This document shows, in pieces, positions 3,961 through 64,000 of a DNA stretch of 64,000 nucleotides. The translations under genes were made by a program, and so were the position numbers. How positions within the stretch are numbered: position 1 is the first letter of the stretch; every line of letters starts with the position of its first letter. Source of the DNA: Notamacropus eugenii (lineage: Eukaryota; Chordata; Mammalia; Diprotodontia; Macropodidae). The stretch is taken from positions 354,764,660 through 354,828,659 of the forward strand of contig NC_092873.1 of assembly GCF_028372415.1 (NCBI RefSeq), written 5' to 3'. The notes under the pieces are model-generated. The model had not been told where the DNA came from. It ran no database searches and saw only the letters and a program-made list of their open reading frames with translations.

Positions 3961-4472
3961 CTCACTGCTTCTCCCCAGACTATGCAATGATTCCTCCAAA
4001 AGGAGTTGCAACCTTCCCCTAGTCGAGTAGGGAGAGAGCTGACCCGAAGCGTGTTTAGATGTCTATGTGTGTTTGTGCATGAGCGCGCGCACATGTGGTG
4101 TGGTGTGCTGTGGTGTTGTGCGGTGTGGTGTGTGTGTGTATGTGTATGTATGTACACGCGCGAGCGTGAGTGTGTGGTCATTTACTCCCTCCCCTTCTAG
4201 TTTGCTCTCCAGAGGCTAAGGTTCTCAGATTACGCTGGACAGCGCACGTCCTACCATGGTGGTGGGAGAGGGGACGAGCTATCTCGACCGATTCTTGACC
4301 CGGGTCGCTGTGTGTATCGGCTATGTCGCGGCAGTGCGGGGACAAAAAAACCCCAGGTCAAGGAGAGGGTAGGACAGAAGCGGTGACCGCGGGCCGAGGA
4401 AGGAAGAGCTGCAGGGCGGGAAAGAAGGAACGGGAAGGGAGTGGAGGAAATCGCGACCCCTCCCCAAGTTAC

Positions 4473-4562
4473 CTTGGTTTCCTGGAGGGTGGAAACAGTC
4501 CCAGGGGAGGGCTGAGTGCCAGCGTCCTCGGGTTCGTTCTCCTTCTCGCTCATTTCGGTCAT
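4473..4562 (-). CDS. STAC2: STAC2 exon 1, coding part (30 residues)
   Basis: The reverse strand encodes a 30-residue N-terminus that begins [15 protein letters not shown] and ends TLQETK, followed at once by a consensus donor (AAG|GTAACT). From family knowledge, human STAC2 begins with nearly the same 30 residues ([15 protein letters not shown]..., ending ALQETK) before its LQRFKRS segment in exon 2. STAC2 is a neuronal and muscle adaptor with one C1 zinc finger and SH3 domains; it binds L-type calcium channels and affects their trafficking and inactivation. None of those domains is in this exon. The reading frame stays open upstream of the chosen ATG, but homology fixes the start at MTEM. 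The exon ends in phase 0. The rest of the gene is outside the window. Confidence 0.9.
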
Positions 4563-59884: not shown

Positions 59885-59967
59885 ATGTTACTCTGGCACA
59901 ACCAACCAGAACATCTGTGGCCCAGCCCAGGGGAGCTATACCCCTGTTCCAGTAGTAGTCTGCTCAG
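59885..59967 (+). CDS. CP2-like gene, coding exon 1
   Basis: Codes [17 protein letters not shown]... (27 codons plus two bases), ending CTCAG|GTAGGT (phase 2). A at position -3 of the ATG is favourable. The frame is open upstream, but the start is set by its match to TFCP2L1's first residues. Confidence 0.85.
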
Positions 59968-62900
59968 GTAGGTGCTTCCACCCCTGGGAATATCCCCAAG
60001 GTCTCTTCTCCCTCATCCTCCAGCTCTCTCTGAGGGTGGAGTCATTTGCCTAGGTACCCACCTTGATCCCCCATAGTCAATGTCTTCCAGTGTCTGTCCA
60101 TTTCTCCTGCCTCAGCTGGGTGCTCCCTGTTGACCCTGGTTTCCCCAATCTGCAGAACAGGACTGGGAAGGTGATCCTTAAACATGGAAGTTTCTTTGAG
60201 GGGAGGGGAAACTGTCACCTAGGATTAACTGAATGAGGAAAAGGTGGGCAGAAACACCCCCCTTGGGTTTCCAGCTCCTTTGGAAGCAGAGGAGACTCTG
60301 AGTCCATCCAAGGTTTAGTCATTGTTCTGTGGATATCCAAGCATTTCCTAAAGGTTTCATTCCCCTTTGTACATCCTCTGAGTTAAAGCCAGATCTGTTC
60401 TTATCCAGAGAACGAAGATTGTAAGGTTTAGGGACACGGATGGGAGGTACTCTTTCAGGCATTGAACCATGTCAGCATTTCTGGAAGGAGATTTTCTAAG
60501 GAGATCTGAAGCTGTTTGGAAGATGAGCAAGGCAGACCCTGGGAGAACTGGGGACCATTAACCTCAGCTGCCAGTAGCCCATGATTGGGGAGAACAGGCA
60601 ACATTTGAGAGTTGTAGGAGGAGAGGCTGGCAACTGAGAGTATCCATCTCAACCCAGCAGGGAGTCCCTGACACTGCCATACCTGAAGCAGGAGTACCCA
60701 GCCAGTATTTCTACCTCGGACATGCACTGTCCAGTCTTCCAATATGTCCTCTGTGCTGTCACTTCTCCTGCTGTCAAGCAACATGAGGAAACACTCACCT
60801 ACCTGAACCAGGGTATGGCCGACATGGGGCATGGATGTTGGAAAATGACCACTCAGTGGGGCACTGTAATCTGTTGGCTGTTTGATTTGGAGCCTGGAAG
60901 ACCTGGGTTTGGATCCTACATTTACTGTATCTGTGTGACCTTGGGTGTCATTGGAATCTTAGTTCTCCTATCAGTAATATGGGGATAATAACATTTTCCT
61001 TGTTGTTGTAAGGGTTAAGTGTATGATGTGCATAAAGTGCCCTGAAAACCATAAAGGGCTATGGAAATGCCAGTTGTTTGGTCTCTGTATCCCTAACACC
61101 TAGCTAGCATGGTACCTGGCACCCTGACACATCCAAATGTTTTTGAATGATCATCAAGAGGCACATTGACATAGGGAACAGAGAGCCAGCTTTGGAGTCA
61201 GGAAATCTGGGTTGAGGTCCTCCTTCTGATGCATATCGGATGTGACCCTGGGCAGATCATTCAACTTCCCAATGATCCAGATATCTCTCTAAGAACAAGC
61301 TGTAGAGGTGCCAATTTGTGCTTAGCCCTCACTGGGAACTCCCCACAGGGCCCTTTAACAAATATTGTTAGTGTGGTGGGAGCCTGGATACCATGATGGA
61401 GTTAAGTACACATGATGAACCTGAACCCCAGGGAGGTCACAGGCTAGTCAGCATCAGATACCTGGGAATGGGCTGTAGAAGGTTTGGGGACAAGGGGACC
61501 CCAGAAGTGGAAGGGATTATCTCTGGTCTTCAGATGGTTTGGCTTTAGGCATCACTCTGTTCTCTTTCAGGGCAATCCTATGAGATACGGATGTTCTGTA
61601 ACCCCAAACTAGGGGATGCTTCCCAGTGGCCTCGAATGCTGAAGGTGAGTCTCTTCTCACCTCTGAATCTTCCTTCATATAGATCACATGTGGCTAGCCC
61701 TCAGGCGCTAGGCAGGTTGCCTTGTCTGGTGTTCTCCTCCCCCCATACTCTCTACCTTGGGTACTGGACACCATACTTTAGAGGTAGCATGGATCCAGTA
61801 GTAGAGAGAATATTGAAAGGGAGGTCAGGAAGCCTAGGATTCAAACCACTAACATGGTGTCACTTAACCACTGACCCTCTCCCAGGTTCAGTTTCCTTAC
61901 CTGTAAAATGGAAGAGATATCCTGTAGTGACAATCTTACTGAGAGGCACATATGAGAACACGTATTTTAAAATGTTTTGCAAATAAAAGCATTTGGTAAG
62001 CACCAGACTCCTAGGTGAATGATTATTAAGTAATCTTTCTATTCGTGTAGGATTGTCCATTTGTCTTCTTATTTGGGATAGGGGAGAAGAGGGAGAGGAG
62101 AGGCAGTTTGAATCAGATGAAGAGTATGGAAGGTACTCGGAGGCTGGACTCTGAAATTTCCCAAGTGTTTCTCTGAGCTGGGTGTCTGGTGTCCACAGAG
62201 TGTGGTACGTGTGGTTTTCCATGACCGACGCCTACAATACACAGAACAACAGCAGCTGGAGGGCTGGCGGTGGAACCGTCCAGGGGACAGGATACTGGAT
62301 ATTGGTGAGGGGAATGGAGGGGGAGGGGAGCAAGGTGGAAAGAACCCTCCTCAAGGGACTTCCCTGGATCCTGGAGTGCCTGGGGAGGGGACCCATGGAG
62401 GCTGTGGTGGGGGGAGGCTTTCAGGATGCTTTTACTTCCTGCTACGATCCTTTTGTCTGAGTTTAACTTTGGTGCCTGTCTACCTCTTCCCCTGTGTCTA
62501 CAGATGTGCCCCTATCAGTGGGGGTGCTAGAGCCCCAAGTACTGTCCTCACTCCTCAACACAGTGGAGTTTCTCTGGGATCCTGCAAAGAGGACATCTCT
62601 CTTCTTGCAGGTCAGGGGTTAGGGCATATCATTCCTACTCCTCTAGTCGATCACTGACTGGGTGGTGGGATGAGGTATGAGAAGACAGACAAAATAAAAA
62701 TAGCTAATGCCCAGAAGCATGTGAAACCTGGCAGAGGACCAGTGTCAGAGAAGCTCAGAGGCACTTGAGTGTCCTAGAGTTGGGGTGGCATTCTGGAAAA
62801 GGAGACAGTGTACTCTGAGCAAATTGTCATGCTACTGGGTTTAGATAAGGACAACAAATGGGTAAGGAGCAGAATGACGTGGGGTAAAACACTGGGCCGG

Positions 62901-63836
62901 CTTCTGATGGCAATTTGACTACAGAAATCTTGGACATTCCATTTAGGGGATTTGGGTTCAAATCCCATCCCTGACACTTATACCAGTGCAATCTTGACCA
63001 AGTCACTTGACCTCCCTTATGTCTCGGTTTCTTTATCTGTAAGATGATTAGTCTAGACCATTGGTGGGGGCTCTTTCAGATCTAGATATGAATGATCCCA
63101 AGTCATCGTTCCTTGATCCTTAGTTCCCCCCCATCCTGAAGAAATGTTTAGAATGTTAAAAATTGTTTTTACATGCAACTGGGAAATAGGATATACAGGC
63201 AATGGGGTATTGAAATCTATCTTGTCCTACAGAAAAACAGAAGGGAAAGGGATCAGAGAAGGGGTGGTGGTGATACAAAGGAGGGCAGACTGGGGGAAGG
63301 GGTAATCAGAATGCACGATTTCTTGGGGTGGGGGAGGGGAGAGATGAGGAGAAAAATTAGAATTCAAAATCTTGCGGAAGTGAATGTTAAAAACATTTTT
63401 TTTAAAAAAAGAAAGTGTTTTTAAAATACCTACTATATGCCAAACACTTTACAAATGTTCTCATTTGATCCTCACAACAAGGCTATTATCCCTATTTTAC
63501 AGATGAGAAAACTAAGGCAGACAGAAGTTAAGTGACTCACCCAGGGTCACACATCTAGTAAATATCTGAAACTGGGTTGGAACTTCCAGGTACAAAATCC
63601 TGGGACAGGTATAAGAATAGGTAGAGTACCCAAGTGTGAGGAAAGGATAGACCAAGGGGTTCTTAACCATTTGTGTGTGTGATGACAAGAGGATGGATCC
63701 CTCTGGTCACCTGGTTAAGACCACGGACCCCTTCTCAGAATCATGTTTAAATTCACAAAATAAAACAAAATGGGCTACAAAGGAAATCAATTATGTAGAA
63801 AGAGCTATAAAAAATGTTGGGTGTGTGTGTGTGTGT

Positions 63837-63886
<50 letters not shown>

Positions 63887-64000
63887 CTACAGACCCCAGG
63901 AGAACTCAGAATATAAAGCTGGTTTTGGTTCCATCTGACCGTGGCTAAGCCCCTACTTTCGTCTGCTTACTCCCTTCCTTTTCTATCACAGGTTAATTGC
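59885..64000 (+). CDS. CP2/LSF-family transcription factor, TFCP2L1-like paralogue (5' part)
   Basis: Spliced plus-strand gene, coding segments 59885-59967, 60661-60812, 61571-61644, 62199-62304, 62504-62610 and 63992-64000 (continues). They join without a stop into 177 residues. CP2 proteins bind DNA as dimers or tetramers through an immunoglobulin-like CP2 domain and use a C-terminal SAM-like/dimer region, which is outside the window. The N-terminus [10 protein letters not shown] closely matches TFCP2L1 (MLFWHTQPEH). Residues 29-45 give a (L)TLPYLKQE motif equivalent to LALPIFKQE. From residue ~55 comes the CP2 domain: [77 protein letters not shown], then VNC. Two stretches diverge sharply from all three known vertebrate members (residues ~86-101 and ~144-156). 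The introns are short (199-1381 bp) and carry several MIR copies. All splice sites are GT-AG, and no disabling change was seen. It is STAC2's divergent neighbour, 55 kb away. I recognise the family firmly, but not this member. Confidence 0.92.
60661..60812 (+). CDS. CP2-like gene, coding exon 2
   Basis: Acceptor CCCAGCAG|GGAG, donor CAGG|GTATGG (phase 1). Codes from [11 protein letters not shown] to [10 protein letters not shown], the entry to the CP2 domain. Confidence 0.9.
60870..61090 (+). repeat. MIR SINE in intron 2 of the CP2-like gene
   Basis: tttgatttggagcctggaag, gtgtgaccttgggtgtcatt, ggataataacattttccttg, aaagtgccctgaaaaccat. Confidence 0.8.
61150..61290 (+). repeat. tRNA-SINE fragment in intron 2
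   Basis: agagccagctttggagtcag, ggaaatctgggttgaggtcc, tgtgaccctgggcagatcat. Confidence 0.75.
61571..61644 (+). CDS. CP2-like gene, coding exon 3
   Basis: Acceptor TCTCTTTCAG|GGCAAT, donor AAG|GTGAGT (phase 0). Codes (G)[19 protein letters not shown] and then PRMLK. The second half is unlike the equivalent exon of TFCP2, UBP1 or TFCP2L1. Confidence 0.92.
61785..62015 (+). repeat. MIR SINE in intron 3
   Basis: aggtagcatggatccagtag, ggattcaaaccactaacatg, ccttacctgtaaaatggaag, aaaatgttttgcaaataaaa. Confidence 0.75.
62199..62304 (+). CDS. CP2-like gene, coding exon 4
   Basis: Acceptor GTCCACAG|AGTG, donor ATTG|GTGAGG (phase 1). Codes [20 protein letters not shown] and then the [15 protein letters not shown] motif, the most conserved part of the family. 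Confidence 0.96.
62504..62610 (+). CDS. CP2-like gene, coding exon 5
   Basis: Acceptor GTGTCTACAG|ATGTG, donor TTGCAG|GTCAGG (phase 0). Codes (D)[17 protein letters not shown] and then [18 protein letters not shown]. Confidence 0.94.
62930..63075 (+). repeat. MIR SINE in intron 5
   Basis: gggatttgggttcaaatccc, aatcttgaccaagtcacttg, ctttatctgtaagatgatta. Confidence 0.8.
63140..63412 (+). repeat. L1 3' UTR fragments in intron 5
   Basis: attgtttttacatgcaactg, ggggagagatgaggagaaaa, attcaaaatcttgcggaagt, A/T-rich end. Confidence 0.65.
63418..63590 (-). repeat. MIR SINE in intron 5
   Basis: tacctactatatgccaaaca, ttgatcctcacaacaaggct, ttttacagatgagaaaacta, cccagggtcacacatctagt. Confidence 0.85.
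63645..63900. repeat. DNA-transposon-like scrap with (TG)n
   Basis: ggggttcttaaccatttgtg, cacggaccccttctcagaat resemble a Tigger/MER-type terminal region. It is split by a (GTGT)n tract at 63818-63884; tctacagacccc closes it on the right. Confidence 0.55.
63992..64000 (+). CDS. CP2-like gene, coding exon 6 (first 9 bases)
   Basis: Pyrimidine tract then TATCACAG|GTTAATTGC; VNC aligns with the VHC that follows F(I/L)Q in the family, in phase 0. The exon runs off the window. Confidence 0.8.

Follow-up and report, generated by a model that had tools for sequence, protein, structure and literature searches.

An ancient fourth LSF/CP2 transcription factor gene, annotated under the wrong name, in the wallaby Notamacropus eugenii

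Introduction

Transcription factors of the LSF type recognize half-sites of the CNRG type, and one of them, TFCP2L1 (LBP-9, CRTR-1), is a pluripotency and kidney factor. This report concerns a 64-kb stretch of the 3.445-Gb wallaby genome assembly (C2:354764660-354828659, hereafter the window), which contains the 5' part of an LSF/CP2 gene that is distinct from TFCP2, UBP1 and TFCP2L1. PMC6213935 names a TFCP2/TFCP2L1/UBP1 subfamily, that is, three genes, and PMC9223585 gives four mouse proteins, two of which are splice forms of one gene. The presence of a SAM domain marks the LSF proteins according to PMC2873413, which treats the deep origins of the family and in the text of which the words "TFCP2L1" and "paralog" do not occur. 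Among the matches listed from the open-licence PMC literature, no title refers to a fourth LSF gene or to a gene between STAC2 and FBXL20.

The wallaby gene is a complete and intact fourth member of the LSF/CP2 family. It is an ancient gene annotated under the wrong name, and the known family thereby gains a member rather than a new kind of protein.

Structure of the gene

The window holds coding exons 1–5 and 9 bases at the start of exon 6, with AG/GT at every border; joined in phases 2,1,0,1,0, they give a stop-free frame of 177 residues. The exons, splice sites, phases and frame all lie where the original prediction had placed them. The downstream part was read in C2:354828001-354838000 (window coordinate = position there + 63341), where exons were located by tblastn with a human TFCP2L1 sequence and the splice sites were then read. 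It consists of the end of exon 6 and nine more exons, the stop codon ending at 70686 in the extended window coordinate. The full gene has 15 coding exons, all GT-AG, and 1443 bases encoding 480 residues in a frame that is open to a TAG stop. Broken downstream exons, which had been named beforehand as part of what would refute the claim, were not encountered. The NCBI model for Notamacropus eugenii (P0001, "transcription factor CP2-like protein 1", isoform X2) is identical over residues 1–452, after which it runs into intron 13.

Domain organization and comparison with known family members

The 177-residue part encoded in the window matches the Pfam CP2 domain with an E value of 7.1e-27, and the best solved structure is that of human TFCP2 (8y7v, E 2.9e-60); the assignment to the CP2 family, as originally proposed, is thus far beyond chance. 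The full protein comprises a CP2 domain (residues 46–244, E 3.7e-53), a SAM_3 domain (residues 315–372, E 9.2e-18) and a GRHL1_C domain (residues 379–471, E 7.8e-15). Its residues 54–268 match TFCP2 8y7v with an E value of 2.4e-111. The protein has the features of the LSF/CP2 group, namely a CP2 domain nearer to LSF than to Grainyhead, a SAM domain that follows the DNA-binding domain, and a match to the model of the C-terminal oligomerization domain. The Grainyhead-like proteins GRHL1-3 have the CP2 DNA-binding domain in common with it, but the match is far weaker (GRHL1/2 structures, E 4.6e-23 to 1.2e-20), and the wallaby gene encodes the SAM domain that is the mark of LSF proteins. CP2 matches on wallaby C1, C14 and C15:64.8 Mb correspond to GRHL-type genes.

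TFCP2 (LSF, CP2c) provides the top structure match, but falls in another clade, and the wallaby gene differs from it by Q234L, R257Q and H201N (TFCP2 numbering throughout). TFCP2L1 has the same domain order, the same type of first exon and homology along the whole protein, whereas it forms a separate clade and keeps Q234; the wallaby protein and human TFCP2L1 are alike at 145/191 residues in the DNA-binding domain and at 23/65 in the linker. UBP1 (LBP-1a) also displays the same domain order, has a STAC-family neighbor about 1.9 Mb away, and shares its first exon in some models, but again constitutes a separate clade (140/191 residues alike in the DNA-binding domain).

A separate clade within the LSF branch

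From protein searches with 2452, 2500 and 2425 matches, the top 120 rows of each were used, all of them cluster representatives; pooled, they gave 245 distinct proteins. In a FastTree phylogeny of these proteins and four anchors, with chimeric or low-quality gene models left in the count, 161 of the 245 fall inside a fourth clade with a support of 99. The main tree was computed with IQ-TREE from 81 rows and 475 of 967 columns. To 76 proteins hand-picked from the 245 for taxon spread were added the query, a wallaby UBP1 retrocopy and three human anchor sequences. The fourth clade (41 rows) is split from the other 40 rows at 100/99, and joins the wallaby gene with other tetrapods, a lungfish and sharks or rays. 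Supports for the remaining groups are 100/98 for UBP1, 100/99 for TFCP2, 100/98 for TFCP2L1 (12 rows, the wallaby gene excluded) and 100/98 for TFCP2 plus TFCP2L1; the lampreys are loosely placed (87/62). The claim that the gene is a separate paralogue, not TFCP2L1, is borne out by this tree.

A relocated or recently duplicated TFCP2L1 would agree with the name TFCP2L1 carried by the database entries and with the similar first exon. However, a distinct TFCP2L1 is located at C15:311.67-311.70 Mb, with 96–97% agreement to human TFCP2L1 over three exon stretches, and the two clades are split at 100/98 and 100/99. UBP1 (C4:489.01-489.03 Mb) and TFCP2 (C4:223.47-223.49 Mb) likewise have places of their own in this genome. 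The presence of all three relatives indicates that the window gene is no relocated copy, and its origin as a copy of TFCP2L1 is extremely improbable. The simple relocation that the original prediction had named as its own counter-case is ruled out by the true TFCP2L1 on C15 together with the position of the window gene outside the TFCP2L1 clade.

The start ML-WH-QPEH had been taken as a sign that TFCP2L1 is the closest relative. This does not hold, because lamprey proteins begin in the same way, as do models from coelacanth, elephant shark and frog that are named UBP1, and the start therefore does not show kinship with TFCP2L1. From its distribution, the first exon encoding it looks like an ancestral one.

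Distribution across vertebrates and possible losses

The clade includes marsupials (opossum, koala, brushtail, devil, bilby and others) and a wide range of placental mammals, with carnivores (cats), whales, camels, bovids, deer, pig, donkey, rhinoceros, bats, moles, pangolin, elephant, aardvark, tenrecs, golden mole, colugo, tree shrew, lemurs and squirrel monkey. Other members, by name, are monotremes, crocodile, turtles, squamates, tuatara, birds, frogs, salamanders, caecilians, lungfish, and sharks or rays. The suggestion that the gene may be lineage-restricted or lost from placentals is contradicted by the many placental orders with proteins in the clade, and a marsupial-only or placental-lost gene is ruled out by the members in cats, whales, bats, elephants and lemurs. 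In the first 120 rows, four proteins (P0053, P0059, P0078 and P0079) have a best single alignment that scores higher with a human protein than with the wallaby gene; P0079 is from a lungfish, P0078 lies outside the fourth clade in the FastTree phylogeny, and P0053 and P0059 lie inside.

These genes are already in the databases by automatic annotation, as TFCP2L1 or UBP1. Two members present full frames on short contigs, P0027 with 481 residues on 1926 bases, and P0116 with 477 residues on 1718 bases (43 member sequences). The contigs are too short for the introns described here, so that they represent either spliced transcripts or intronless copies; we read them as spliced transcripts.

Inspection by eye of the 161 members, drawn from the best 120 cluster representatives of each search, reveals no name from human, other catarrhines, rodents or rabbit. 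The 13 rows with names of ray-finned fish among the matches listed all lie outside the clade. Within the scope of those matches, the result suggests, rather than proves, loss in the human/catarrhine, rodent and rabbit lineages. A relaxed need would probably have let some placental lineages lose the gene. The squirrel-monkey model (P0210, Saimiri boliviensis) lacks the conserved 13-residue core of the DNA-binding domain, and its C-terminus is unrelated. These features are expected either of a gene copy that is damaged or of a model of low quality, and they hint at decay of the gene in New World monkeys.

Conservation and evolutionary rate

The wallaby gene keeps 105 of the 111 DNA-binding-domain columns that are invariant across 39 other LSF sequences in the tree, the retrocopy being excluded (3 lamprey, 14 UBP1, 10 TFCP2 and 12 TFCP2L1). 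Changes per column in the fourth gene amount to 0.694 between cat and turtle, 0.818 between cat and eagle, and 0.964 between cat and newt. The corresponding human–bird values are 0.100 for TFCP2L1, 0.159 for UBP1 and 0.061 for TFCP2, and the human–amphibian values are 0.217, 0.220 and 0.103, respectively.

Such fast evolution would be expected if the gene were decaying and had no role left in the wallaby. The same reading is favored by the squirrel-monkey model with its missing core and odd end, and by the X2 model of N. eugenii that runs into an intron. By contrast, 15/15 exons and their splice sites are intact, and opossum, koala and the other marsupials listed above carry the gene. Moreover, wallaby and cat are identical at 165/191 positions in the DNA-binding domain and 51/58 in the SAM domain, versus 41/70 in the linker, a pattern that fits selection on the domains and is predicted for selection on function. 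Decay in the wallaby is accordingly very improbable.

Age and origin of the gene

Sharks or rays, lungfish and tetrapods are represented in both the fourth clade and the TFCP2L1 clade of the 81-row tree, which places the split between the two genes before the living jawed vertebrates. The genomic surroundings were analyzed with STAC2 and FBXL20 proteins as queries. The first coding exon of STAC2 was found in the window and the other STAC2 exons sit just to its left on the minus strand, so that the gene is indeed beside STAC2, as first claimed. Matches to FBXL20 extend from C2:354844918 upwards on the minus strand. The order is therefore STAC2, fourth LSF gene, FBXL20; in human 17q12, STAC2 and FBXL20 are presumably adjacent. 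The SH3 part of STAC2 detects STAC2 itself and then two places on C4, one at 487.07 Mb (1.9 Mb from UBP1) and one at 232.68 Mb (9.2 Mb from TFCP2). Both fall on the exons on which STAC2 also matches, and we take them to be STAC and STAC3. STAC-family neighbors thus occur near three of the four LSF copies (the fourth gene, UBP1 and TFCP2), which supports a shared paralogous region and fits the early vertebrate genome duplications.

Several observations weigh against such a fourth member of the family. The best tree puts the fourth clade with UBP1 at 87/62 only, and the AU test does not reject TFCP2L1 as its partner (p-AU 0.232), so that more than one order of the duplications agrees with these trees. 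FBXL2, a paralogue of FBXL20 that we assume to lie beside UBP1 in human, was found neither by the whole-genome FBXL20 search nor in C4:489034001-489054000, a stretch of 20 kb that holds the end of UBP1 and what follows it. The evolutionary rate of the fourth gene exceeds that of the other three by a factor of about 4 to 13 in the various comparisons, and this factor is rough because the species differ between the sets. Together with the damaged-looking squirrel-monkey model, this rate makes the gene seem dispensable somewhere. On balance, the wallaby gene probably represents a complete fourth vertebrate LSF/CP2 member that is roughly as old as TFCP2, UBP1 and TFCP2L1; the two early vertebrate genome duplications most likely left it as the last of four copies.

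A residue change fixed in amniotes

Residues were counted in all 245 fetched proteins, comprising 84 non-members, 15 non-amniote members and 146 amniote members of the fourth clade. Position 234 is Gln in 84/84 non-members and 15/15 non-amniote members, and Leu in 143/143 scorable amniote members (3/146 are gapped). This fixation of Q234L is the most surprising part of the finding. Position 257 is Gln in 143/145 scored amniote members (the other two have Arg and Glu), Arg in 15/15 non-amniote members, and Arg (80) or Lys (4) in the 84 non-members. At position 201, His is present in 84/84 non-members and Asn in 15/15 non-amniote members, while the amniote members have Asn (57), Lys (86), Gly (1) or a gap (2).

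The laboratory dominant-negative form of human CP2c (TFCP2), as defined in PMC10667816, is Q234L plus K236E, and amniotes thus naturally carry one of its two changes. On these grounds, and because the SAM and C-terminal domains are retained, the amniote protein might be a natural dominant negative that co-oligomerizes with TFCP2, UBP1 or TFCP2L1, reads DNA poorly through Q234L and damps them. The laboratory form, however, bears both changes, and the amniote members keep K236 in 143/143 scored cases, R245 in 142/144 and K248 in 141/144; we regard a natural dominant negative as unlikely. A scenario in which stem amniotes fixed Q234L, and the gene then specialized as an antagonist, or as an altered-specificity partner, of TFCP2, UBP1 and TFCP2L1, is quite improbable.

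Proposed function and significance

By analogy with its relatives, the fourth protein would bind paired half-sites as a dimer or tetramer via its CP2 domain. Its SAM and C-terminal domains would mediate oligomerization, probably with other family members as well. No CpG island is present at the putative promoter, with CpG observed/expected values of 0.02–0.22 across the eight windows tested; a TATA-type, CpG-poor promoter of this kind would point to expression in few tissues.

The view of redundancy in the family changes with a fourth gene of equal age that occurs in many farm, pet and wild mammals as well as in birds, reptiles and amphibians, and that is possibly missing from human and mouse. 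Many database entries named TFCP2L1 in these animals correspond to a different gene. The fixed Q234L offers a direct test for a natural antagonist within the family; if the gene were such an antagonist and lost in the human and mouse lineages, both standard models would be without a brake that many other amniotes have.

Features of the window and further LSF-type copies

Table 1. Coordinates of the annotated features (window positions; the window is 64,000 bases long)
Feature	Position	Strand	Remarks
STAC2, first coding exon	4470..4562	-	head-to-head with the fourth LSF gene; STAC2 protein as query
TATA-box-like sequence TATAAAA	59731..59737	+	about 150 bases upstream of the ATG; putative promoter
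Coding exon 1	59885..59967	+	ATG at 59885; identical to N. eugenii model P0001
Coding exon 2	60661..60812	+	DNA-binding domain CP2 begins here; splice sites and frame
Coding exon 3	61571..61644	+	splice sites and frame
Coding exon 4	62199..62304	+	holds the 15-residue core; splice sites and frame
Coding exon 5	62504..62610	+	splice sites and frame
Coding exon 6, first 9 bases	63992..64000	+	exon ends at 64144 (extended window coordinate)

The wallaby genome also contains an intronless UBP1 copy at C4:81480578-81482437 (plus strand; L018:2578-4437), with a 620-codon open frame that has a MAWVLK start inside and an end branch of 0.27 in the tree. This copy is a candidate for an intact retrogene. 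Pieces with internal stops were found at C1:64264306-64264545 and C15:40273098-40275065 (most like TFCP2) and at C1:275784140-275784409 (most like TFCP2L1), and these three look like broken processed copies. A weaker piece, also with stops, is located at C15:69544382-69544765.

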